DNA from: Aestuariispira ectoiniformans
GTDB taxonomy: Bacteria; Pseudomonadota; Alphaproteobacteria; UBA8366; Aestuariispiraceae
Assembly (NCBI RefSeq): GCF_025136295.1
Contig: NZ_CP062788.1
Location: 930,001-994,000 of the forward strand
DNA: 64,000 nt
Direction of reading: 5' to 3'
Shown piece by piece: positions 23,951-55,147 of the stretch. How positions within the stretch are numbered: the stretch's first letter is position 1; each line of letters opens with the position of its first letter. Made by a program: the position numbers and the translations under genes. The notes beneath the pieces were generated by a model, which was given only the letters and a program-made list of their open reading frames with translations, was not told the DNA's origin and did not search any database.

Positions 23951-25147
23951 ATGGCGGGTCGTAACGCATTATTCATCCCCGGACCGACCAACATGCCGGA
24001 TCGTATTCGCAACGCGATTGATCTTTCCATGGAAGATATGCGCGCGCCGGATTTTCCGGAATTCACCAAGCCGCTGTTCGAGGACCTGAAGAAGGTCTTT
24101 CAGACTGAAACCGGTCAGGTCTTCCTGTTCCCGGGTTCCGGCACCGGTGGCTGGGAAGCGGCGATCACCAACACGCTGTCGCCGGGCGACAAGGTCCTGA
24201 TCAGCCGTTTCGGCCAGTTCTCCCATCTCTGGGTGGATATGTGCGAGCGCCTGAAGTTGAACGTCGATGTGATCGACGTTGAGTGGGGCACGGGCGTTCC
24301 GGTTGAGGAATATGCCAAACGCCTGGAGGCGGACAAGGCCCATGAGATCAAGGCGGTCTTCTGCTGTCACAACGAAACCGCAACCGGTGTCACTTCTGAC
24401 ATTTCGGCGGTCCGCAAGGCGCTGGATGCAGCCGATCACCCGGCGTTGCTTTATGTGGATGGCGTCAGTTCCATCGCCAGCATCGATTTCCGCATGGACG
24501 AATGGGGTGTGGATCTGGCGGTCAGCGGCTCCCAGAAAGGCTTCATGCTGCCGACGGGTCTGGCCATCGTCGGTGTCAGCCAGAAGGCTCTGGAAAAACG
24601 CCACACCGCACAATCGACCCGTTGCTTCTTCGATTTCGAAGACATGATCCGCCTGAATGCACAGGGTTACTTCCCCTACACCCCGGCAACCACCTTGCTG
24701 CGCGGCTTGCGCGCATCGGTTGACATGCTGCTGGAAGAGGGGCTGGAAAACGTCTTTGCCCGTCATCACCGCATGGCCGAGGCGGTTCGCCGTGCGGCAA
24801 TCGACGGCTGGGGCATCGGTGTCTGCGCCAAGGGGCCGGAATGGTATTCCGACACGGTAACCGCCGTGACCGTCCCGGACGGCTTTGACGGCAACCAGGT
24901 CGTGAAACATGCCTACTACCAATACAACCTGTCGCTGGGCGTCGGCCTGTCGAAAGTTGCAGGCAAGGTCTTTCGTGTCGGCCATCTGGGCAGCCTGAAC
25001 GAGTTGATGATCCTGCAAGCCCTGGCCGGTTGCGAAATGACCATGCGCGATCTGGGTATCCCGATCGAGGCCGGCAGTGGTGTGGCCGCAGCGGAAGAAT
25101 ATTTCCGTGAAACCGCAACGCGGGCGCAGGCCCTGGCCGCTGAATAA
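23951..25147 (+). CDS. sgaA: serine-glyoxylate (possibly aspartate-glyoxylate) aminotransferase
   Basis: This 398-residue class V PLP aminotransferase transfers an amino group to glyoxylate, giving glycine. The family opening FIPGPTNMPDRIRNAID, the GSGTGGWEAAITNTLSPGDK loop, HNETATGVTSDI, FVDGVSS-like YVDGVSSIASIDFRMDEW and the PLP lysine in SGSQKGFMLPTGLA are all present. In the serine cycle the donor is serine and the product hydroxypyruvate, consistent with the hydroxypyruvate reductase and glycerate kinase genes downstream. BhcA of the beta-hydroxyaspartate cycle is a close relative that uses aspartate. Because bhcBCD are in this window without bhcA, dual use is possible. The ATG at 23951 follows AGGGAG; the upstream in-frame codon at 23942 lacks a site. 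Confidence 0.92.
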   Translation: MAGRNALFIPGPTNMPDRIRNAIDLSMEDMRAPDFPEFTKPLFEDLKKVFQTETGQVFLFPGSGTGGWEAAITNTLSPGDKVLISRFGQFSHLWVDMCERLKLNVDVIDVEWGTGVPVEEYAKRLEADKAHEIKAVFCCHNETATGVTSDISAVRKALDAADHPALLYVDGVSSIASIDFRMDEWGVDLAVSGSQKGFMLPTGLAIVGVSQKALEKRHTAQSTRCFFDFEDMIRLNAQGYFPYTPATTLLRGLRASVDMLLEEGLENVFARHHRMAEAVRRAAIDGWGIGVCAKGPEWYSDTVTAVTVPDGFDGNQVVKHAYYQYNLSLGVGLSKVAGKVFRVGHLGSLNELMILQALAGCEMTMRDLGIPIEAGSGVAAAEEYFRETATRAQALAAE

Positions 25148-25186: not shown

Positions 25187-26131
25187 ATGAGTCACACAAT
25201 TTATCAGCCCGTTGTCTCCCGCTTGCAGCGCAGCGAACTGGCCGTGCCGGGGTCGAACCCGTCGATGATCGACAAGGCCGCCGACAGTGCTGCCGACTAT
25301 ATCTTCCTTGATGTCGAAGACGCGGTTGCCCCGCCGGACAAGGAACAGGCCCGTGCCAATATCATCCAGGCGCTGAACGACATCGACTGGAAAGCCAAAG
25401 GCAAGACGATCTCTGTGCGTATCAACGGTCTGGATACCCATTACATGTATCGCGACGTGGTCGATATCATGGAACAGGCCGGGGACAAGCTGGATACGAT
25501 CCTGGTGCCGAAAGTCGGCGTCCCGGCGGACCTCTATATGGTAGAGGCCATGTGCAACCAGATCGAACAGGCCAAGGGCTACACCCGTCAGGTGGGGCTT
25601 GAAGCCCTGATCGAAACGGCGCTTGGCATGGCCAATGTTGAATCCATCGCTCAAGGCTCCAAACGCCTGGAAGCCATGCATTTCGGTGTTGCTGACTATG
25701 CCGCCAGCAACCGCGCGCGTACGGTCAATATCGGTGGCCTGAACCCGGATTATCCGGGCGATCAGTGGCATTTTGCCCTGTCCCGCATGACGGTTGCCTG
25801 CCGGGCCTATGGCCTGCGCGCCATCGATGGTCCGTTCGGCGATTTCAACGATCCGGACGGTTATATCCTGGGTGCGAAACGTGCAGCCGCACTTGGTATT
25901 GAAGGGAAATGGGCGATCCATCCCTCCCAGATCGAACTGGCCAATGACGTCTTCTCCCCGCCGGCAGCGGAAGTGGACCGCGCCCATCGCATCCTGGAAG
26001 CCCTGCGCGAGGCAGAGGCTGCCGGGCGTGGCGCTGCTCAGTTGGACGGCAAGATGATCGACGCGGCCTCTGCCCGTATGGCGGAAAATGTCGTGAATAT
26101 CGACCAGGCGATCAAGGCGCGCTCCGCGTAA
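25187..26131 (+). CDS. mclA: L-malyl-CoA / beta-methylmalyl-CoA lyase
   Basis: This 314-residue CitE-like TIM-barrel enzyme cleaves malyl-CoA to acetyl-CoA and glyoxylate. It resembles methylotroph MclA closely, with [17 protein letters not shown], the Mg2+/CoA segment [69 protein letters not shown] and [15 protein letters not shown]. It lies 39 bases after the aminotransferase and directly before mtkAB, whose product malyl-CoA is its substrate, so the operon encodes malate to acetyl-CoA plus glyoxylate. A beta-methylmalyl-CoA activity (ethylmalonyl-CoA or 3-hydroxypropionate pathways) cannot be excluded from sequence. Confidence 0.93.
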
Positions 26132-26160: not shown

Positions 26161-27342
26161 ATGGATATCCATGAGTATCAGGCAAAGGAACTGTTGGCCG
26201 GTTTCGGCGTGCCGATCGCGCGCGGCGGCCTCGCCTACAGCCCGGAACAGGCAACCTATCGCGCCCGTGAACTGGGTGGCGACAAATGGGTGGTGAAGGC
26301 TCAGATCCATTCCGGCGCACGCGGCAAAGCGGGCGGCATCCGCGTCTGCGAAAACGACAAGGAAATCTGGGAAGCGGCAGACGACCTGCTGGGCAAGACC
26401 CTGGTCACGCACCAGACCGGTCCGCAGGGCAAGACGGTCTATCGCCTCTATGTGGAAGAGGCGACCAATATCGACCGGGAGATTTATCTCGGCTTCGTCC
26501 TGGACCGGAAACATGAACGGGTCTGCGTCGTGGCGTCTGCGGCTGGTGGCATGGAGATTGAAGAAATCTCTGCGGAACAGCCCGACAGCATCATCCGCGT
26601 CGCGGTGGAAAGTGCTGTCGGCATGAAACCGTTCCAGGCGCGTGAAATCGCCTTCAAGCTGGGCCTGGAAGCAGGCCAGATCAGCAAGGCGGAAAAGGCG
26701 ATCCTGGGCTGCTATCGGGCGTTCCGTGAAATGGACGCCACCATGGTGGAGATCAACCCGCTGGTGGTGACCGGCGAAGGCGAGTTGGTCGCGCTCGACG
26801 CCAAGATGAGCTTTGACGAAAACGCCATGTTCCGCCGTCCGCATATTGCGGAATTGCGCGACAAATCACAGGAAGACCCGCGCGAGACCTATGCGGCGGA
26901 TCGCGGTCTGTCCTATGTGGGGCTGGACGGCAATATCGGCTGCATCATCAACGGTGCGGGCCTCGCCATGGCGACCATGGACATGATCAAACATGCCGGT
27001 GGGGAGCCTGCCAACTTCCTTGACATCGGTGGCGGCGCGTCGCCGGAGCGGGTGACCAAGGCCTTCAAGGCGGTGCTGGCCGATGATGGGGTCGAGGCGA
27101 TCCTGGTGAACATCTTTGCCGGTATCAACCGTTGTGACTGGGTGGCCGAAGGCGTGGTCCAGGCGGTTCAGAATATCGACCTGAAAATCCCGCTGGTGGT
27201 CCGTCTGGCGGGCACCAATGTGGAAGAGGGGCGTGAAATCCTGAAAAACAGCGGCCTGCCGATCATCACGGCGGAAAGCCTGGGCGAAGCGGCAGACAAG
27301 GCCGTTCAGGCCTGGCGCGACAACACGGCCAAATCGGCCTAG
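26161..27342 (+). CDS. mtkA: malate-CoA ligase, beta subunit (malate thiokinase)
   Basis: The 393-residue ATP-grasp protein is related to succinyl-CoA synthetase beta (SucC). It opens [22 protein letters not shown] and has [18 protein letters not shown] (nucleotide loop), [23 protein letters not shown] and [30 protein letters not shown]. With MtkB it activates L-malate to malyl-CoA at the cost of ATP. The assignment to malate rather than succinate rests on position, immediately after mclA and in the same order (mtkA-mtkB) as in serine-cycle clusters. It lacks the usual TCA-cycle neighbours such as mdh or sucAB. An RBS-like GGGAGGA precedes the ATG by seven bases. Confidence 0.88.
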
Positions 27343-27360: not shown

Positions 27361-28257
27361 ATGGCTATTCTTTTGAACGAGACCACCCCCGTTATCGTCC
27401 AGGGCTTCACCGGCCGGATCGGGACATTCCACGCCCAGGAAATGATGGATTACGGCACCAATGTTGTCGGCGGGGTGACACCCGGCAAGGGCGGCACGAC
27501 CCATCTGGGCAAGCCGGTCTTCAACACCGTGCGAGAGGCGGTGGAGGCAACCGGTGCTACCGCCTCCGTGATCTTTGTACCGCCGCCCTTCGCCGCGGAT
27601 TCCATCATGGAAGCGGCAGATGCGGGCATCCAATATGCGGTCTGCATCACCGACGGCATTCCCGCCCAGGACATGATCGAGGTGAAACGCTATATGCGCC
27701 GTTACAAGCGGGAGCAGCGCATGATCCTGACCGGGCCGAACTGTGCCGGGTCGATCAGCCCGGGCAAGGCGATGATGGGCATCATGCCGGGCCATATCTA
27801 TATGCCGGGCAAGGTCGGCGTTGTCGCCCGGTCCGGCACGCTGGGCTATGAGGCCGCCGCCCAGATGAAGGCGCTGGGCATCGGGATTTCCACCAGCATC
27901 GGCATCGGCGGAGACCCGATCAACGGCAGTTCCTTCCAGGATATCCTGGAACATTTCGAACAGGATGCTGAAACCGAAGCGGTCATGATGATCGGTGAAA
28001 TCGGTGGCCCGCAGGAAGCGGATGCCGCCCAATTCATGCGCGATCATATGTCGAAACCGGTTGTCGCCTATATCGCGGGCTTGACGGCGCCAAAGGGCCG
28101 CCGGATGGGCCATGCCGGGGCGATCGTTTCTGCCTTTGGGGAATCCGCTGCTGAAAAAGTGGAAATCCTGAAGGAAGCAGGTGCTCTTGTCGCGCCTAAC
28201 CCATCGGAGTTAGGCTCCACCATGGCGCAAGCCCTGGCGGGTAAGCCTGCGGCGTGA
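27361..28257 (+). CDS. mtkB: malate-CoA ligase, alpha subunit
   Basis: The 298-residue SucD-like subunit has an N-terminal CoA-binding Rossmann domain (VIVQGFTGRIGTFHAQEMMDYG, GGVTPGKGGTTHLGKPVF) and a C-terminal ligase domain. The phospho-histidine is in KGRRMGHAGAIVSAF. ITDGIPAQDMIEVKRY and GPNCAGSISPGKAMMGIMPG are family landmarks. It starts 18 bases after mtkA and would form the heterotetrameric malate thiokinase with it. A stable hairpin pair in the 100 bases downstream separates it from the reductase gene. Confidence 0.88.
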   Translation: MAILLNETTPVIVQGFTGRIGTFHAQEMMDYGTNVVGGVTPGKGGTTHLGKPVFNTVREAVEATGATASVIFVPPPFAADSIMEAADAGIQYAVCITDGIPAQDMIEVKRYMRRYKREQRMILTGPNCAGSISPGKAMMGIMPGHIYMPGKVGVVARSGTLGYEAAAQMKALGIGISTSIGIGGDPINGSSFQDILEHFEQDAETEAVMMIGEIGGPQEADAAQFMRDHMSKPVVAYIAGLTAPKGRRMGHAGAIVSAFGESAAEKVEILKEAGALVAPNPSELGSTMAQALAGKPAA

Positions 28258-28357: not shown

Positions 28358-29329
28358 ATGTCCAAGCCAAAAGTGATCGTGACACGACGTTGGCCGGAAC
28401 AGGTCGAGGCGGAAATGCAGCGTCTGTTCGATGTTGAGTTGAACACCGATGACCGGCCAATGACCAAAGATGAAATCCGCAATGCCATGATGCGTGCGGA
28501 TGCCCTCTGCCCGACGGTGTCGGACAAGCTCGGCCCGGCGATCTTTGCAGGTGAGGGCATTCGCACCAAAATCCTCGGCAATTTCGGGGTCGGTTTCAAC
28601 CATATCGATATCGAGGCGGCGAAGGCGGCAGGGGTCAGGGTGACCAACACCCCCGGCGTGCTGACGGATGCCACGGCGGATATCGCGCTCACCCTGATCC
28701 TGATGGTGGCCCGTCGGGCGGGTGAAGGCGAACGGGAAGTGCGCGACAATGCCTGGACCGGTTGGCGGCCGACGCATTTGTTGGGCACACAGGTAACGGG
28801 CAAGACTTTGGGCATCATCGGCATGGGGCGTATCGCCAAGGCCGTAGCCCACCGTGCCCATCATGGTTTCGGTATGGACGTGGCTTTCTATAACCGCTCC
28901 AAGGTCGATGAGGCTGAGGCGCGCAGTCTGGGTGCCCGTCAGGTCGATAGTATCGACGAAGTTTTGGAAACTGCGGATTTCGTCTCGCTCCATTGTCCGG
29001 GCGGTGCGGAAACCTTCCATCTGATGAATGCGGAACGCATCGGCAGGATGAAGCCGTCGGCCTATCTGATCAATACCGCCCGCGGCGATGTGGTTGACGA
29101 GCAGGCGCTGGCAACAGCCTTGAATGATGGCACGATCGCAGGCGCAGGTCTGGACGTCTACCAGGGCGAACCGGATATCGCACCGGCGCTGCTATCTGCC
29201 AAAAACACGGTGCTTTTGCCGCATCTGGGCAGTGCGACCACTGAGACCCGGACCGCCATGGGCATGAAGGTCGTGGAAAACCTGAAAGCGTTCTTCGCTG
29301 GTGAGACGCCGCCGGATGTGGTTGTCTGA
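28358..29329 (+). CDS. hydroxypyruvate / glyoxylate reductase (D-2-hydroxyacid dehydrogenase)
   Basis: The 323-residue enzyme belongs to the D-isomer-specific 2-hydroxyacid dehydrogenases. The nucleotide-binding loop is LGIIGMGRIAKAVAHRA with FYNRSK after the second strand, where Arg-Ser points to NADP(H) preference. The catalytic Arg lies in NTARGDVVDEQAL, the Glu in VYQGEPD and the His in LLPHLGSATTETR. In the serine cycle it reduces hydroxypyruvate to D-glycerate, the substrate of the next gene. It may also reduce glyoxylate to glycolate. The ATG follows AAGAGGT. It lies 38 bases before the kinase gene. Confidence 0.92.
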   Translation: MSKPKVIVTRRWPEQVEAEMQRLFDVELNTDDRPMTKDEIRNAMMRADALCPTVSDKLGPAIFAGEGIRTKILGNFGVGFNHIDIEAAKAAGVRVTNTPGVLTDATADIALTLILMVARRAGEGEREVRDNAWTGWRPTHLLGTQVTGKTLGIIGMGRIAKAVAHRAHHGFGMDVAFYNRSKVDEAEARSLGARQVDSIDEVLETADFVSLHCPGGAETFHLMNAERIGRMKPSAYLINTARGDVVDEQALATALNDGTIAGAGLDVYQGEPDIAPALLSAKNTVLLPHLGSATTETRTAMGMKVVENLKAFFAGETPPDVVV

Positions 29330-29367: not shown

Positions 29368-30717
29368 ATGGCGTTGCAGGAGCGTATGGGTATCTCTCAG
29401 GCACGGGATTTGGCGGAAACCGCTTTCCTTGCCGGTGTGAAGGCGGCCGATCCGGACAAGGCGGTGCGTGCTGCCCTTTCCGTGAAAAAGACCGGCCTGT
29501 CCGTTGCCGGTGTCAAGGACGTCTGGAGACATGTCTTCCTGATTGCTTTCGGTAAGGCTGCCTGCGGGATGACCGAAGGGGCGTTGGCTGTAATTCCTCC
29601 GGAGTATCTGGCGGCCCCGCCCATTGTTGTGACCAATGACGAGAATTTCCGGGAAATGGACGGTTGCCGCGTCTTTGCCTCCGGGCATCCCCTGCCGGAT
29701 GCGCGCGGCATGAAGGCAGCACAGGAAATTGCTGCTTTGCTTGACCAGACCACGAAAGAGGATTTGGTCCTGGTTCTGGTCAGTGGCGGCGGCTCGGCCT
29801 TGCTGCCGCTGCCTGCCGAAGGCATTTCCCTGGATGAAAAAATTCAGACCACGGACCTGCTACTGGCCTCCGGGGCCGGGATCAGCCAGGTCAATGCGGT
29901 GCGCAAGCATCTCTCTGCTCTCAAGGGTGGACAGTTGGCGCAAAAGGCATTACCGGCTTGCGTGCATGCCCTGATCCTGTCGGATGTGATCGGTGATGAC
30001 CTTTCCTCAATTGCCAGCGGGCCGACCGTGCCGGACCCGACGCGATTTTCGCTCTGCCGGGCAATCCTGAAGGATTACGGCGTCTGGACCAAACTGCCGG
30101 CTGCGGTACTGGCGCGGCTGCGAAAAGGTCATCAGGGATTGTTGCCCGAGACGCCCAAACCGGGCGGTGATGTTGACCGGCAGGTACATAACACGCTGGT
30201 TGGCAGCAATGCCTTGAGTCTGAAAGCGATGGAGGAGGCGGTTACCAAACAAGGCATTGTGGTCAGGCGCTATGATGATGCCCTGACAGGGGAAGCCCGG
30301 GACGAGGCGGCAAAGCTGGTTGCCTATCTCAAGACACTGAACAAGGACGTGAAGCGGGGGCCAATGGCCGTGACGGCTGGTGGTGAGACGACCGTGACAC
30401 TTTCCGGTAAGGGCAAGGGCGGACGGAACCAGGAATTTGCGCTCGCTTTTGCGATTGAGGCCGAAAGGCAGGAATTGGGGATGAACTGGGAATTCCTGAG
30501 CGCGGGCACCGACGGTCGCGATGGTCCGACGGATGCCGCAGGTGCTGTGGTGGATGCCCAGACGTTGGCCCGAATGCGGGATGCCGGGGGGAACCCGGCG
30601 GCTTTGTTGGCGGAAAATGACGCCTATAATGCCTTGTCGCTTTCCGGGGACCTGATCAAAATCGGCGGCACCGGCACGAATGTGGCCGACCTGCAACTGG
30701 CCCTGATCTGGGTTTGA
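29368..30717 (+). CDS. gck: glycerate 2-kinase (MOFRL type)
   Basis: The 449-residue protein phosphorylates D-glycerate to 2-phosphoglycerate, which enters lower glycolysis. It is the two-domain TtuD/GckA family: an N-terminal DUF4147 domain with VLVLVSGGGSALLPLPAEG, ISQVNAVRKHLSALKGGQLA and LILSDVIGDDLSSIASGPT, and a C-terminal MOFRL domain with AGGETTVTLSGKGKGGRNQE and SAGTDGRDGPTDAAGAVVD. It ends the serine-cycle operon; a terminator begins 20 bases after the stop. The ATG at 29368 has GCAGGGGAA upstream. Confidence 0.93.
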   Translation: MALQERMGISQARDLAETAFLAGVKAADPDKAVRAALSVKKTGLSVAGVKDVWRHVFLIAFGKAACGMTEGALAVIPPEYLAAPPIVVTNDENFREMDGCRVFASGHPLPDARGMKAAQEIAALLDQTTKEDLVLVLVSGGGSALLPLPAEGISLDEKIQTTDLLLASGAGISQVNAVRKHLSALKGGQLAQKALPACVHALILSDVIGDDLSSIASGPTVPDPTRFSLCRAILKDYGVWTKLPAAVLARLRKGHQGLLPETPKPGGDVDRQVHNTLVGSNALSLKAMEEAVTKQGIVVRRYDDALTGEARDEAAKLVAYLKTLNKDVKRGPMAVTAGGETTVTLSGKGKGGRNQEFALAFAIEAERQELGMNWEFLSAGTDGRDGPTDAAGAVVDAQTLARMRDAGGNPAALLAENDAYNALSLSGDLIKIGGTGTNVADLQLALIWV

Positions 30718-35988: not shown

Positions 35989-38675
<2,687 letters not shown>

Positions 38676-38676
<1 letters not shown>

Positions 38677-39740
38677 TAGGCTGCTCCCGCCTCGAAAATT
38701 TCCAAACCCGACAGGCGAAGCGCATCCTTCTGTTTCGGAATGCGACGCGGGGCAATACCATCGACCGCCTTGGCGATGGCGTCGATATGGCCCGGTGTGG
38801 TGCCACAGCATCCGCCGACGATGTTGAGCAGGCCTTCCTCGGCCCAGTTGCCAATCTGCTCTGCCATGTCGTCCGGTGTTTCGTCATAGCCACCGAATTC
38901 ATTCGGCAGACCGGCATTGGGATAGATGCAGACCAGACTGTCCGCCACCCCGGCCAGGGTTTTCACATGCGGGCGCAGTTCCTTGGGTCCCAGCGCGCAG
39001 TTGAGGCCGATGCTGAACGGGCGGCCATGTTCGACGGATACCCAGAAGGCCTCCGGCGTCTGTCCGGTCAGCGTGCGGCCGGACCGGTCCGTAATCGTGC
39101 CCGAAATCATCACCGGCACATTGGTGCCGCGTTCGGTCTGTACCAGATCGACCGCAAAGATCGCCGCCTTGGCGTTCAACGTGTCGAAGATGGTTTCGAT
39201 CAGCAGTAGATCGACACCGCCATCAAGCAGCCCCTTGGTGGCCTCTGTGTAGGCTTCCACCAGCTGGTCGAAGGTGATGTTGCGATAGCCTGGGTCGTTC
39301 ACATCCGGGGAAATGGAGGCTGTCCGGTTGGTCGGGCCGAGTGCGCCGGTCACGAAACGCGGCTTGTCCGGCGTTTCCGCCTCAATGGCGGCTGCGGCCC
39401 GGCGGGCAACTTTTGCGGCCTCGACATTCAACTCATAGGACAGGTCTTCCAGGTGATAATCCGCCTGGGATATGCGATTGGCGTTGAAGGTATTTGTGGT
39501 CAGGATATCCGCGCCCGCCTCCAGGAACTGGCGGTGGATGTCCTCAATCGCCTGCGGCTGGGTCAAGGTCAGCAGGTCGTTGTTGCCGCGCAGGTCACTG
39601 GCGTGGTCGCCAAAGCGCGCGCCGCGATAGTCCTCTTCACTGAAATCATAGGCCTGGATCATGGTGCCCATGGCACCGTCCAGCACAAGAATGCGGTTTC
39701 GTACGGCTTCGAATAACGTGTTGGTTCTCTCTGTCGACAT
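38676..39740 (-). CDS. methionine synthase, homocysteine-binding part (MetH1)
   Basis: The 354-residue homocysteine S-methyltransferase module starts [26 protein letters not shown]. The zinc ligands are Cys in GLNCALGP and the Cys pair in [31 protein letters not shown] is typical. In full-length MetH this is the N-terminal domain; here it ends at a TAA overlapping the ATG of the next gene. It must dock with MetH2 for methyl transfer. It lies 37 bases downstream of metF. Split metH is known in several alphaproteobacteria. Confidence 0.95.
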
Positions 39741-39777
39741 GATCCTGAACTTGCTTTTTGTCCTATGAAGGCGGTGT

Positions 39778-40671
39778 TTATGCGGCGTGTTTGGCGGCCC
39801 GGTCGCGCACGCCCAGGGCGTGGCAGATTGCCCGGGTCAGATCTGCACGGTTCATGGTGTAGAAATGGAAGCTGCGCACGCCGTTTGCGTAGAGGTCGCG
39901 GCATTGTTCGATGGCGACTGAGGCGGCAATCATCGCCTGCGTTTCCCGGTCGTCGTCCAGGCCGTCGAACATATCGACCAGCCATTGCGGGATATGCGCG
40001 CCGCAGGCGCTGGAGAAATTGACCAGACCCTGCAGGTTGGTAACAGGCATGATGCCGGGCACGATTTCCTGCGTGATCCCCGCAGCTTCCGCCTGATCGC
40101 GGAAGCGGTAGAAGTGATCGTTTTCAAAGAAATACTGTGTGACCGCCCGGTTGGCCCCTGCATCCAGTTTGCGCTTCAGGTTGTCCAGGTCGGCTTTGGC
40201 GCTGGCGGCCTGGGGATGCACTTCCGGGTAGGCGGCGACACTGATGTCGAAATCCGCAACCTTGAGCAAACCTTCGACCAAATCGGCGGCAAAGGCATAG
40301 CCATCCGGGTGCGGTTCATATTTGCCACTGCCTTTGGGCGGGTCGCCGCGCAGGGCCACGATGTTGCGCACGCCTTCCGCCCACAGGTCGCGGGCCAGAT
40401 TATCCACATCCTGCCGCGCGGCCCCCACACAGGTCAGGTGGTGGGCGATCGGTACGCCGGTCGATTTCTGCAGGCGCGTGACCCAGTCGCGGGTCAGGTC
40501 CTGGGTGGTTCCGCCCGCGCCATAGGTGACCGACATGAAGTCCGGTGACAGTTCGGCCAGCTTTGTGGCGGCCTCGTCCAGACGTGTTGCCCCATCCGCA
40601 GTCTTGGGCGGGAAAAATTCGAAAGATACCGAGATTCCCGGCAAGGCTTCTTTCAGATATTTGGTCGGCAT
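39778..40671 (-). CDS. metF: 5,10-methylenetetrahydrofolate reductase
   Basis: This 297-residue FAD-dependent TIM-barrel enzyme makes the 5-methyl-THF used by MetH. Landmarks are [13 protein letters not shown] (catalytic Glu), [66 protein letters not shown] and a C-terminal [16 protein letters not shown] choose [12 protein letters not shown] (40671); the frame also has an ATG at 40707, but a 26-base palindrome covers that codon and is better placed as a promoter operator. It heads the metF-metH1-metH2 unit. Confidence 0.94.
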
Positions 40672-40696
40672 CGCTATAACTTTCGTCGCCCTGGTT

Positions 40697-40722
40697 GATA
40701 AAGACATAACGATATCTTTATC
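40697..40722. promoter_or_regulatory. palindromic operator upstream of metF
   Basis: Perfect 8-bp arms GATAAAGA and TCTTTATC are separated by 10 bases, in an AT-rich patch just before metF. AT-rich ArsR-family sites of this shape (for example the methionine-cycle regulator SahR) are known in proteobacteria; attribution to SahR is inference. No arsR gene is in view. Confidence 0.5.
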
Positions 40723-51502: not shown

Positions 51503-51835
51503 ATGTTTGAAAATACCGCAACGGTGACCACGGAAAAGGCCGCCAAATATCTTGTCCAGCTTTGCAAGCATTTCGCCCATAAGGTCGAGGTGGACTATTG
51601 CGAGACCAGTGGGACGGTTCATTTCCCGCCGGGGCCTTGCGCCATGCATGCGGATGAAAACACCCTGACCATGCAATGCCGGTCGGAAAGCCTGCGCGGG
51701 GTTTTGATGATGCAGGGCATTCTGGACAGCCATCTGGAACGCTTTGCCTGGCGTGAGGAAATCACCATTCCCTGGCCGAAACTGGATGGCGAGGACGCGG
51801 TTCGGGCGCAGGTGGCAGCCGAACAACAGGGGTGA
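51503..51835 (+). CDS. DUF2218 domain protein
   Basis: The 110-residue soluble protein contains TEKAAKYLVQLCKHFAHKVEVDYCETSGTVHFPPGPCAMHADENTLTM and HLERFAWREEITIPWP, typical of DUF2218, a small family that often accompanies siderophore transport operons. Its function is unknown. Conserved His and Cys residues are consistent with metal or chelate handling. It ends the operon; a hairpin follows. Confidence 0.9.
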   Translation: MFENTATVTTEKAAKYLVQLCKHFAHKVEVDYCETSGTVHFPPGPCAMHADENTLTMQCRSESLRGVLMMQGILDSHLERFAWREEITIPWPKLDGEDAVRAQVAAEQQG

Positions 51836-51865: not shown

Positions 51866-52052
51866 TGCAATCTTTCTTTCAAAAAAATATTAAAAGTATT
51901 TTTAGTTTTTATATTATTCCGGAATTATGGCGACCTAGGCACACTCTCTCCAGAGGCTTTTCCCTTGCAGGCGAAGAAGACGCGAACCACGCGCAGCGGC
52001 CCGTCCCGCGACCTGCAAATCACTGAGACAAAAGCGGATGGAGAGAGCGCCC

Positions 52053-53012
52053 ATGTATGTGCCAACCTTTGATGACGTCCTTGCCGCGCATGAACGCATC
52101 AAGCCCTATATTCACCGCACGCCGGTGATGACGAGCGCCACCTTTGACGGCATGACCGGGGCGAAACTGTTCTTCAAATGTGAAAACCTTCAAAAGGCCG
52201 GTGCCTTCAAGGTGCGCGGGGCGACCAATGCCGTCTTCTCCCTGACAGAGGAGGAGGCTAAGCGCGGTGTTGTCACCCATTCCTCCGGCAATCATGCCCT
52301 GTCGCTCAGCCGCGCGGCATCCTTTCGCGGGATCAGTTGCACGGTTGTGATGCCGGAAACTGCGCCCCAGGCGAAACTGGATGCGGTGCGCGGATACGGC
52401 GGTGAGGTGATCACCTGTGCGCCCAGCCTGCAGGCCCGGGAGGAAACCCTGGCGGATCTGGTGGAGCGCACCGGCGGCAATTTCGTGCATCCCTATAACG
52501 ACCATCGGGTGATCGCGGGACAGGGAACCTGTTCGGTGGAATTGATCGACCAGGTGGGTGCGCTGGATGCGGTGATCGCGCCGATCGGCGGCGGCGGGAT
52601 GGTCAGCGGGACAAGCCTGTCCATGGCGGCTTTGTCGACGGGGACCAAAGTCTATGCGGCGGAACCAAAAAACGCCGACGATGCCTACCGGTCCTTCAAG
52701 GCGGGACACATCATCGAGGATGATGCGCCGGATACGGTGGCCGACGGTTTGAAAGTGTCCCTGCGGGACCTGACTTTCCACATCATCAGTAACCATGTGA
52801 CCGACATCCTGACGGTGACGGAGGAACAGATCATCGAGGCCATGCGCCTGATATGGCAACGTATGAAGATCGTGGTGGAGCCTTCTTCCGCCGTCACATT
52901 GGCCGCCATTTTTGCCCATCCTGAAATTTTTGAAGGAAAACGCGTCGGGGTAATCCTGACCGGCGGCAACGTGGATTTGAACAAACTGCCCTGGCTGCCC
53001 AAAGCGGCGTGA
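52053..53012 (+). CDS. bhcB: beta-hydroxyaspartate dehydratase (BhcB)
   Basis: This 319-residue PLP enzyme of the threonine dehydratase/serine racemase fold converts (2R,3S)-beta-hydroxyaspartate to iminosuccinate in the BHA cycle. The Schiff-base Lys is in GAFKVRGATNAV, the substrate loop is SSGNHALSLS and the phosphate loop is IGGGGMVSGTS. Sequence alone would allow a threonine dehydratase or serine racemase. The next two genes, a D-threonine-aldolase-like and an ornithine-cyclodeaminase-like protein in the order bhcB-bhcC-bhcD, make the BHA assignment convincing. The ATG at 52053 has GGAGAG seven bases upstream; an ATG at 52038 has no site. Confidence 0.88.
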   Translation: MYVPTFDDVLAAHERIKPYIHRTPVMTSATFDGMTGAKLFFKCENLQKAGAFKVRGATNAVFSLTEEEAKRGVVTHSSGNHALSLSRAASFRGISCTVVMPETAPQAKLDAVRGYGGEVITCAPSLQAREETLADLVERTGGNFVHPYNDHRVIAGQGTCSVELIDQVGALDAVIAPIGGGGMVSGTSLSMAALSTGTKVYAAEPKNADDAYRSFKAGHIIEDDAPDTVADGLKVSLRDLTFHIISNHVTDILTVTEEQIIEAMRLIWQRMKIVVEPSSAVTLAAIFAHPEIFEGKRVGVILTGGNVDLNKLPWLPKAA

Positions 53013-53048
53013 TCCGGGTGAAGACAAAACAAGTTTGGGAGACAGAAT

Positions 53049-54167
53049 ATGACCATTAACATTCCCGCCGAAATCGGCATGTGCGTCGAGGATGTGGACA
53101 CGCCCGCCCTGTTGATCGACCTGGATGCCTTTGAGCGCAATGTGGATCGCATGGCGAATTTCATCAGCCAAGCCGGGGTGCGTATCCGTGTTCATGCCAA
53201 AACCCATAAATCACCTGATATCGCGCTTTATCAGATCGCCCATGGTGCGGTCGGTGTCTGCTGCCAAAAAGTCAGCGAGGCCGAGGCGCTGGTTCACGGC
53301 GGCGTTCGCGATGTGCTGGTCTCCAACGAGGTGGTCGGCCAGCGCAAGATCGAACGTCTGGCGGCGCTGGCGAAACGTGCCCGCGTGCTGGTCTGTGTTG
53401 ATGACATCGACAATATCTCCGATCTGGACGAGGCTGCCGGGCGTTACGGCGTAACTTTGGAAGTGCTGGTGGAGATCGATGCGGGCGCAGGCCGCTGCGG
53501 GGTGCAGCCGGGGGACGCCGCCCTGCCACTGGCGCAGAAGGTGGACGCCTCCGCCAACCTGAAATTTGCGGGCATTCAGGCCTATCAGGGCAAGGCGCAG
53601 CATGTGCATGACTTCAACGAGCGCAAGGCCGCCATCGACGCCGCCGTGGACAAGGTTCGCAAGACCGTTGGCATCCTCAAAGATGCCGGGTTGGACTGCG
53701 ACATCATTGCGGGCGCAGGCTCCGGCACCTATCAGTTCGAGGCGGGCAGCGGCGTCTATAACGAACTGCAATGCGGGTCTTATGTTTTCATGGATGCCGA
53801 CTATGGCCGCATCCTGATGGAGGACGGGCGCCAGATCGACGATTTTGAAAACAGCCTCTTCATCTATACCCAGGTGATGAGCAAGACCAAAATCGACAAG
53901 GCGATCTGTGACGCGGGCCTGAAGGCGCAAAGCGTCGATAGCGGTCTGCCCCTGATCTATGGCCGGACCGATGTAGAATATATCGGGGCCTCTGACGAGC
54001 ATGGCGTCATCAGCGATCCGGATGACAAGCTGCGGCTGGGCGACAAGCTTTATCTGGTGCCGGGGCACTGCGACCCGACCGTCAATGTCTATGACTGGTA
54101 TGTGGGGGTGCGCAACGGCGTCGTGGAAAGCATTCTGGCGGTCAGCGCCCGTGGCATGTGCCTGTAA
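53049..54167 (+). CDS. bhcC: beta-hydroxyaspartate aldolase (BhcC)
   Basis: The 372-residue fold-type III PLP enzyme of the D-threonine aldolase family joins glyoxylate and glycine to beta-hydroxyaspartate. The N-terminal barrel carries DTPALLIDLDAFERNVDRMA and the Schiff-base Lys in RVHAKTHKSPDIA. The metal-binding His-x-Asp pair is in VPGHCDPTVNVYDWYVG at the C-terminus. Length and layout match known BhcC. It lies between bhcB (36-base gap) and bhcD (14-base gap), so the three are one transcript. Confidence 0.9.
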   Translation: MTINIPAEIGMCVEDVDTPALLIDLDAFERNVDRMANFISQAGVRIRVHAKTHKSPDIALYQIAHGAVGVCCQKVSEAEALVHGGVRDVLVSNEVVGQRKIERLAALAKRARVLVCVDDIDNISDLDEAAGRYGVTLEVLVEIDAGAGRCGVQPGDAALPLAQKVDASANLKFAGIQAYQGKAQHVHDFNERKAAIDAAVDKVRKTVGILKDAGLDCDIIAGAGSGTYQFEAGSGVYNELQCGSYVFMDADYGRILMEDGRQIDDFENSLFIYTQVMSKTKIDKAICDAGLKAQSVDSGLPLIYGRTDVEYIGASDEHGVISDPDDKLRLGDKLYLVPGHCDPTVNVYDWYVGVRNGVVESILAVSARGMCL

Positions 54168-54181
54168 GGGGAGGAGTCAGA

Positions 54182-55147
54182 ATGCTTGTTGTTAAGGAAC
54201 AGACGGTCAAGGATCTGGTTACCGACGAGATTGCCTTTGAGGCGGTGGAGGCGGTCTTTGCCGCCATGGCGCGCGGGGATGCCTATAACTTCCCTGTGGT
54301 GCGCGAGGCAATCGGCTATGCCGATGCGCTCTACGGGTTCAAATCCGGGTTCGACCGCTCAAGTCTGGCGCTGGGCCTGAAATCCGGTGGCTATTGGCCG
54401 GGGAACGCAGAACGCGGCCTGACCAATCATCAGTCGACTGTTGTCTTATTCGATGCGGATACGGGCCGTCCCAAGGCCCTTGTTGGCGGCAATTATCTGA
54501 CAGCGGTGCGGACGGCGGCGGCGAGTGCAGTTTCCATCTATCACCTGGCACGTGAGGAATCGTCTGTCCTGGGGATGATCGGGGCGGGCCACCAGTCCAC
54601 CTTCCAGCTTCGCGCCGCGTTGAAACAGCGAAAATTCGATCGGATCATCGGCTGGAATATCGAGCCGGAACGCCTGTCTGTTCTGGAAGAAGTTGCCGCC
54701 GAACATGGCATTCCGTTTCAGCGGGCGGAACTGGAAATCCTGTGCAAGCAGGCCGATGTGATCATCACGATCACCTCCTGCTTCTCACCATTGGTCATGA
54801 AGAACTGGGTGCTGCCGGGCACGCATATCGCCTGCATGGGGACAGACACCAAAGGCAAGCAAGAGGTCGAGGCAGGCCTGATGCCGCAGGCCAAACTGTT
54901 CACCGACGAGGTTGCGCAGTCCATTTCCATCGGTGAATGCCAGCATGCCTTTGAGGCAGGCCTTATCAATCAGGACGATATTACCCCGGTCGGGGCGGTC
55001 ATCAGCGGAAGCCATCCGGGCCGGTCCGCAGCGGATGAGATCACCGTATTCGACGGTACGGGGGTCGGTCTTCAGGATTTGGCCGTGGCCTCGATTGCTG
55101 TTGAGGTGGCCGTCAAAAACGGCCTGGCGCAGGAAATCGACTTCTAG
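54182..55147 (+). CDS. bhcD: iminosuccinate reductase (BhcD)
   Basis: This 321-residue protein of the ornithine cyclodeaminase/mu-crystallin family reduces iminosuccinate to L-aspartate with NAD(P)H. The Rossmann segment LGMIGAGHQSTFQLRAALK is followed by an acidic residue after the second strand (IGWNIEPERL). The substrate-side ALVGGNYLTAVRTAAASAV fits the family. GGGGAGGAG lies five bases before the ATG at 54182. It ends the bhcBCD unit and is convergent with the sensor kinase gene 42 bases away. The bhcA aminotransferase and the IclR-type BhcR regulator that accompany bhc genes in Paracoccus are absent here. Confidence 0.9.
   Translation: MLVVKEQTVKDLVTDEIAFEAVEAVFAAMARGDAYNFPVVREAIGYADALYGFKSGFDRSSLALGLKSGGYWPGNAERGLTNHQSTVVLFDADTGRPKALVGGNYLTAVRTAAASAVSIYHLAREESSVLGMIGAGHQSTFQLRAALKQRKFDRIIGWNIEPERLSVLEEVAAEHGIPFQRAELEILCKQADVIITITSCFSPLVMKNWVLPGTHIACMGTDTKGKQEVEAGLMPQAKLFTDEVAQSISIGECQHAFEAGLINQDDITPVGAVISGSHPGRSAADEITVFDGTGVGLQDLAVASIAVEVAVKNGLAQEIDF

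Follow-up and report, generated by a model that had tools for sequence, protein, structure and literature searches.

The beta-hydroxyaspartate cycle, reportedly described in a 2019 Nature paper, is represented in Paracoccus denitrificans by the gene set bhcRABCD. In the window analyzed here, a stretch of 64,000 nucleotides from Aestuariispira ectoiniformans, bhcB, a bhcC-like gene, and bhcD lie together at 52038-55147 with no bhcA beside them. At a distance of 27 kb, a serine:glyoxylate-type aminotransferase (P0001) of the same family as BhcA heads a serine-cycle operon, and the first-pass annotation proposed that this one enzyme may serve both pathways with serine and aspartate as donors. The locus thus raises the question of whether bhcA is missing from the genome as a whole and, if so, how bhcBCD could operate. 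The reading that we favor, tentatively and with a little less than even confidence, is that the canonical bhcA is gone and that bhcBCD forms an opened branch, not a self-contained cycle, with glycine formation driven by serine and with aspartate leaving through a general transaminase.

The Serine-Cycle Operon and Its Aminotransferase

The P0001 frame runs uninterrupted from ATG to stop (398 aa) behind a GGGAG-like ribosome site, and is followed by the operon genes listed in Table 1. The CoA ester lyase, a probable malyl-CoA lyase, would supply the serine cycle with glyoxylate and acetyl-CoA, and its slot is annotated as CoA ester lyase in Sinorhizobium and Aminobacter plasmids. In Aminobacter, the slot of the D-2-hydroxyacid dehydrogenase is annotated as D-glycerate dehydrogenase, and that of the glycerate kinase as DUF4147. 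Plasmid pAM01 of Aminobacter sp. MSH1 has the operon in identical order (aminotransferase, CoA ester lyase, malate-CoA ligase beta and alpha, D-glycerate dehydrogenase, DUF4147 kinase), with an aminotransferase 65% identical to P0001, and plasmid pC101c of Sinorhizobium sp. C101 features the first four genes in the same order. The Aminobacter aminovorans plasmids NZ_CP015006 and NZ_CP015007/NZ_CP015008, which by their accessions belong to one strain, carry this type of aminotransferase as well as an annotated bhcA, whereas the genome of the window has no bhcA.

Table 1. Coordinates and model support of the features discussed (window positions unless stated otherwise).
Feature	Coordinates	Strand	Support
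P0001, serine:glyoxylate-type class V aminotransferase	23951..25147	+	first gene, serine-cycle operon
CoA ester lyase, probable malyl-CoA lyase	25187..26131	+	CitE and malyl-CoA lyase models, below cut-offs
Malate-CoA ligase beta subunit (mtkA)	26161..27342	+	NF010647, 722.7 bits (cut-off 604)
Malate/succinate-CoA ligase alpha subunit (mtkB)	27361..28257	+	NF004230, 432.2 bits (cut-off 336)
D-2-hydroxyacid dehydrogenase, probable hydroxypyruvate/glycerate reductase	28358..29329	+	glyoxylate reductase model, 310.1 bits (below cut-off 455)
Glycerate 2-kinase family gene	29368..30717	+	glycerate 2-kinase models, 216.7 and 215.1 bits (below cut-offs)
DUF2218 gene, not an aminotransferase, at the expected bhcA place upstream of bhcB	51503..51835	+	PF09981, 104.5 bits
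bhcB, beta-hydroxyaspartate dehydratase	52038..53012	+	NF045641, 580.2 bits (cut-off 550)
bhcC-like, 3-hydroxyaspartate/D-threonine aldolase family, non-canonical	53049..54167	+	NF045642, 574.2 bits (cut-off 690); best PDB match 6qkb
bhcD, iminosuccinate reductase	54158..55147	+	NF045643, 567.5 bits (cut-off 500)
P0002, aminotransferase, 388 aa	3475837-3477003 (genome contig)	-	intact ORF

The best solved relatives of P0001 are the structures 6pk1 and 6pk3 of Arabidopsis AGT1, a serine:glyoxylate aminotransferase. P0001 matches 6pk1 over the whole length of the fold (TM 0.95, 54% identity) and shares its catalytic residues, but has Met30 at the substrate-contacting position held by Tyr35 in AGT1. 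Among the 42 solved sequences matched, the next scores about one third as high as AGT1, and so no BhcA structure seems to have been solved.

On the NCBI BhcA model (NF045640, L-aspartate--glyoxylate aminotransferase), P0001 reaches 654.4 bits against a cut-off of 650, a margin of 4 bits, and automatic annotation would therefore probably name it BhcA and may hide the gap. Its counterpart in the relative G001 scores 640 bits, below the same cut-off. The identification of the open reading frame at 23951-25147 as bhcA itself was rejected: its model score passes, but its operon, clade, and residues argue against this. The model is accordingly to be used with caution, as it passes at least one serine-cycle enzyme.

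The bhcBCD Cluster and Its Variant bhcC

The absence of bhcA from the cluster, as first annotated, is confirmed by reading of the neighboring genes, among which neither bhcA nor bhcR adjoins bhcBCD. The three frames are open and retain the B-C-D order of P. denitrificans bhcRABCD, and bhcB and bhcD pass their curated models. In addition to the missing bhcA and adjacent bhcR, the window differs from P. denitrificans in its bhcC-like gene, whose product is below the model cut-off and outside the main BhcC clade. A ribosome-binding-site-like GGAGAG precedes the ATG at 52053, so that bhcB may start there and not at 52038.

Against the BhcC cut-off of 690 bits, the window protein scores 574.2 and its G001 counterpart 745.8. 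Two BhcC relatives that are linked to bhcA also fall short, those of Rhodovibrio (674, in a match without the first 14 positions) and G208 (647.9), and two stand-alone relatives score 479.6 each. A 46-row tree places the window protein outside the main BhcC clade (support 100/99), which comprises 24 of the 25 bhc-linked rows and two stand-alone proteins. The other bhc-linked outsider is the G208 protein, which is the closest BhcC found to that of the window (67%), and a stand-alone Agrobacterium protein branches near the two. The window protein also has Thr52 where BhcC has Met, a residue shared with 14 of 20 stand-alone relatives. In G208, bhcR, bhcA, and bhcB lie beside the variant gene, which indicates that a variant BhcC can coexist with bhcA; no bhcD was detected within 14 kb at this locus (L143).

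Columns that are invariant among the other cluster proteins, with each protein left out in turn, reveal uneven drift. Of the 160 columns that show no variation across 26 other BhcC proteins, 23 are changed in the window BhcC-like protein, compared with at most 8 in any other. BhcB is changed at 10 of 129 (others at most 3), and BhcD retains all 100 (others at most 3). G001 is changed at 0, 1, and 1 such columns in B, C, and D. G208, in which no bhcD was found, stands outside this set, and its BhcC has 6 of the 23 window changes; L135 and L144, whose bhcD is cut to 3 and 252 aa, were omitted from the bhcD count. Both are among the 27 rows of a concatenated bhcBCD tree, where the branch of the window row has a length of 0.88, far above the median of 0.18. 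Taken together, the lack of A and the variant form of C beside canonical B and D weaken the claim that the canonical cycle runs here.

With the divergently oriented neighbor of P. denitrificans bhcA as query, taken as bhcR by its position, a homologue adjoins bhcA in 11 of 12 bhcA clusters (L134-L145). The best match in the genome of the window (40%) adjoins pyruvate kinase and encodes an IclR regulator, and G001 has no match at E 1e-10. This IclR gene (G000:C1:1600383) was rejected as bhcR because its relatives in G012 and G007 (55-58%) adjoin pyruvate kinase as well. A BhcR-like IclR regulator divergent from pyruvate kinase is thus seen in all three genomes (L171:6693-9214, L172, and L173). 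BhcR is required for growth of P. denitrificans on glyoxylate (PMC11323563); with no bhcR found here, control is probably different.

Search for bhcA in the Whole Genome

The genome is a single contig of 4.36 Mb with a completeness of 98.27, which leaves room for a small gap. A search with P0001 returned the protein itself, a close paralogue (P0002, 63-64% identity), one match of 24%, and one weak match. On the BhcA model, P0001 scores 654 bits, P0002 about 620, the 24% match 79, and a fourth match 13.6. The 24%-identical class V match was rejected as a BhcA substitute because it passes models of 2-aminoethylphosphonate transaminase (PhnW). For comparison, the plasmid aminotransferase adjoining bhcB in P. 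denitrificans HAMBI 2443, taken as BhcA by position, is 59% identical to P0001. The placement of P0001 and BhcA in one family by the first-pass annotation is supported.

The 155 aminotransferase matches collected for phylogeny correspond to 120 different proteins, from which 119 rows were used; the one omitted is the cut BhcA of G004 (255 aa), present in three overlapping loci. The sample leans toward P0001, as 80 of its loci are the best 80 of at least 591 confirmed relatives. All 25 rows that adjoin bhcB or bhcC fall into one clade with a support of 100, which also takes in one protein each from G008, G009, and G011, three genomes in which BhcB had no match. Outside the BhcA clade lie two pairs, P0001 with its counterpart in G001 (83% identity) and P0002 with its own (70%). 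A careful tree of 60 of these rows concurs (BhcA clade 100/100, P0001 and P0002 outside). The serine-context rows do not form one clade, and in both trees the branches outside BhcA are mostly unresolved. In an AU test, a tree that holds the P0001 pair together with the BhcA clade has a better likelihood than the quick tree (p-AU 0.857), which suggests that P0001, while outside the BhcA clade, may represent its sister lineage. The BhcA-model score of P0001 (654 bits) exceeds those of the serine-operon copies of G007, G010, G011, and G012 (571-581 bits).

The search for a second copy that the first-pass annotation called for therefore yielded P0002, a close paralogue outside the BhcA clade, and no separate bhcA. 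By sequence and model searches and by two trees, no BhcA-clade protein was found in this single-contig genome.

Residues Possibly Linked to the Amino Donor

In the AGT1 structural report, Tyr35′ and Arg36′ contact serine, and a His-Arg pair at the same place in E. coli SerC binds a side-chain carboxylate (PMC6797613). These two positions correspond to 30 and 31 in P0001 numbering, the offset being taken from the alignment. P0001 has the PLP and carboxylate residues K196, D170, F90, and R342, together with M30-R31 and L93.

Position 30 is His in all 28 BhcA-clade rows. The 64 other serine-context rows divide into 29 with Met, 28 with His, 4 with Gln, and 3 with Ile at this position, and the 18 rows without recognized context into 11 with His, 4 with Met, and 3 with Gln. 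His30 on its own is thus common among serine-cycle enzymes. Met30-type enzymes, such as that of Hyphomicrobium, are presumably serine-specific. Position 93 is Arg (24) or Lys (4) in the 28 BhcA-clade rows. The 82 other rows counted, which include the 64 serine-context rows but neither the four candidates nor five distant outgroup rows, have Leu without exception. The candidates, namely P0001, P0002, and their G001 copies, all have Leu93; Met30 is found in P0001 and its G001 copy, and His30 in P0002 and its G001 copy. Of the BhcA signature derived in this analysis (His30 with Arg or Lys93), P0001 therefore has neither residue and P0002 has one. Of 18 BhcA-specific columns, P0001 shares two (320 and 368) and P0002 three (85, 95, and 351). 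From these patterns we infer that residues 30 and 93 may govern the use of aspartate, which would make them a candidate serine/aspartate donor switch in this aminotransferase family.

With serine as donor, BhcA of P. denitrificans aminates glyoxylate (KM 2.1 mM, kcat 8.8 per s) as well as oxaloacetate (KM 7 mM, kcat 25.9 per s) (PMC9436414). Since that enzyme accepts serine, a single enzyme for both pathways is chemically possible, and by analogy P0001 with serine alone could supply glycine for BhcC. The proposal of one shared enzyme is thus upheld in part: serine has a precedent in P. denitrificans BhcA, but the use of aspartate by P0001 is unsupported given Met30, Leu93, and the two shared columns.

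P0002 and a Possible Purine Link

P0002 is encoded far from the window (Table 1). An apparent TGA suggested that the gene might be broken, but is consistent with its own stop codon, and the 388-aa frame is open. Its neighbors are a PuuD-type urate oxidase gene (PF06181), adenosine deaminase and guanine deaminase genes within 6 kb, a TRAP transporter, and, read by eye, a divergent LysR-like regulator gene. In G001, puuD and the regulator are conserved beside the P0002 counterpart, and no purine gene is found among the seven further open reading frames tested around the aminotransferase-puuD pair.

On plasmid pSC52_1 (L170, CP049029.1), genes for an IclR regulator, an aminotransferase, bhcB, bhcC, and bhcD lie between puuD and a purine permease, ureidoglycolate lyase, and puuE; the regulator and B, C, and D were assigned by matching, the aminotransferase by annotation alone. 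At a further locus (L071), a puuD-like gene is located near bhcRABCD. These layouts suggest that glyoxylate from purines could feed the beta-hydroxyaspartate pathway, and that P0002 could be its working aminotransferase.

Distribution in Other Genomes

BhcB searches matched 6 of 14 genomes of the family at E 1e-100 (the same six among 28 of the order) and 15 of 389 of the class at E 1e-140, together 18 genomes. In 15 of these, bhcA directly adjoins bhcB, in one case (G004) as a fragment at a contig end. Of the other three, the genome of the window and G001 have bhcBCD without bhcA, and G404 (L146) has a lone bhcB that passes the family cut-off, bhcA, bhcC, and bhcD all being absent within 14 kb. 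G001 has the same layout as the genome of the window: a serine-operon copy 83% identical to P0001, a puuD-linked copy 70% identical to P0002, and bhcBCD without bhcA.

The malate-CoA ligase beta subunit exceeds its cut-off in 7 of 23 genomes tested, namely that of the window (G000), G001, G007, G010, G011, G012, and G300 (by 3 bits). Of these, G007 and G012 carry both the serine-operon aminotransferase and a true bhcA, which indicates that a serine-cycle aminotransferase alone does not make bhcA dispensable.

Within the family of the window, bhcA occurs with no BhcB match in G008, G009, and G011 (L128, L131, and L132; near a contig end in G011), and G006 (L129) has bhcA and bhcC with no BhcB match. 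The beta-hydroxyaspartate pathway thus seems to come apart in pieces within this family. The G008 bhcA adjoins genes for a LysR regulator and an FAD oxidoreductase, with hydantoinase B genes farther off.

How bhcBCD May Operate Without bhcA

Gene content, layout, the absence of a BhcA-clade protein, and the residue states are directly established, and on this basis we infer the reactions and fluxes of the route, the role of a general aspartate aminotransferase, and the running of the branch at all. Glyoxylate would arise from malyl-CoA cleavage, purines, or other sources, and a serine:glyoxylate-type enzyme not encoded in the bhc cluster, mainly P0001 acting on serine, would aminate it to glycine. 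Hydroxypyruvate, the other product of P0001, would be taken up by the reductase and kinase encoded in its operon. Glycine and glyoxylate would then be condensed by the bhcC-like aldolase to 3-hydroxyaspartate, which BhcB and BhcD would convert to aspartate. Finally, aspartate would be used directly or turned into oxaloacetate by a putative general aspartate aminotransferase, with its amino group not passed to glyoxylate.

This opened branch agrees with the lack of a BhcA-clade protein in the genome, with the same layout in G001, and with the nature of P0001, which has AGT1-type catalytic residues, Met30 as in 29 of the 64 other serine-context rows, and Leu93 as in all 64. The P0001 operon also encodes a reductase and a glycerate kinase that could take hydroxypyruvate, and bhcB and bhcD are above family cut-offs, with BhcD unchanged at all 100 invariant columns. 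However, G007 and G012 retain a true bhcA despite their serine-cycle aminotransferase, and the tie of residues 30 and 93 to aspartate is read from sequence patterns. The AU test (p-AU 0.857) bears on the same point, as a P0001 pair placed with the BhcA clade could keep a breadth common to BhcA. The drift in BhcC (23/160) and BhcB (10/129) also counts against the opened branch, since it could mean another role. In the model of the first-pass annotation, P0001 accepts serine as well as aspartate and thereby completes the canonical cycle. BhcA, a relative of P0001, accepts both donors (PMC9436414), the BhcA-model score of P0001 is higher than those of four other serine-operon copies (654 against 571-581), and a place of P0001 beside the BhcA clade is compatible with the AU test; yet with neither signature residue, and only columns 320 and 368 shared, we regard a dual-donor P0001 as distinctly unlikely.

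That P0002 is the working substitute, aminating purine-derived glyoxylate, possibly with aspartate, and so feeding bhcBCD, is rather unlikely, but has several points in its favor. The gene is intact and lies beside puuD and purine deaminase genes, the aminotransferase-puuD pair recurs in G001, and a bhcRABCD-like set sits within a purine cluster on pSC52_1. P0002 also has His30-Arg31, reminiscent of the carboxylate-binding His-Arg pair of E. coli SerC (PMC6797613). It nevertheless has Leu93 and not Arg or Lys, its 3 of 18 BhcA-specific columns are barely above the 2 of P0001, and it stands outside the BhcA clade with 618.8-620.8 bits, below the cut-off of 650. The seven further G001 frames include no purine gene, and P0002 could equally be a plain glyoxylate aminotransferase of a purine pathway. 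In another reading, bhcBCD are off the hydroxyaspartate route, either decaying or serving another beta-hydroxy amino acid. In favor of this, the protein in the BhcC slot is outside the main clade and has the Thr52 of 14 of 20 stand-alone relatives, no bhcR was found in the searches described, and bhcA is kept without BhcB in other genomes of the family. On the other hand, the three frames are open, BhcD is unchanged at its invariant columns, the G001 copies are ordinary (0, 1, and 1), and in G208 a similar BhcC (67%) is clustered with bhcR, bhcA, and bhcB. Decay or a change of substrate is accordingly the least probable of these readings.

Returning to the opened branch, the broader proposal is that it is a natural opened beta-hydroxyaspartate route, in which the serine cycle provides glycine, aspartate is the product, the serine cycle and glyoxylate assimilation form one network, and a non-canonical aldolase occupies the place of BhcC. 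We consider this possible but doubtful in its entirety. Among the titles and abstract openings listed from the open-licence literature on the hydroxyaspartate cycle, none describes a bhcA-less bhc cluster. If true, the proposal would mean that the beta-hydroxyaspartate route does not have to run as a closed cycle and that it can be connected to the serine cycle, which would bear on bacterial glyoxylate use and on the engineering of C1 and C2 assimilation.

A further group of genes near the serine-cycle operon (35989-40707) resembles a split methionine-synthase set: it encodes domains of B12-dependent methionine synthase, the homocysteine domain being absent, along with a homocysteine S-methyltransferase and a methylenetetrahydrofolate reductase.
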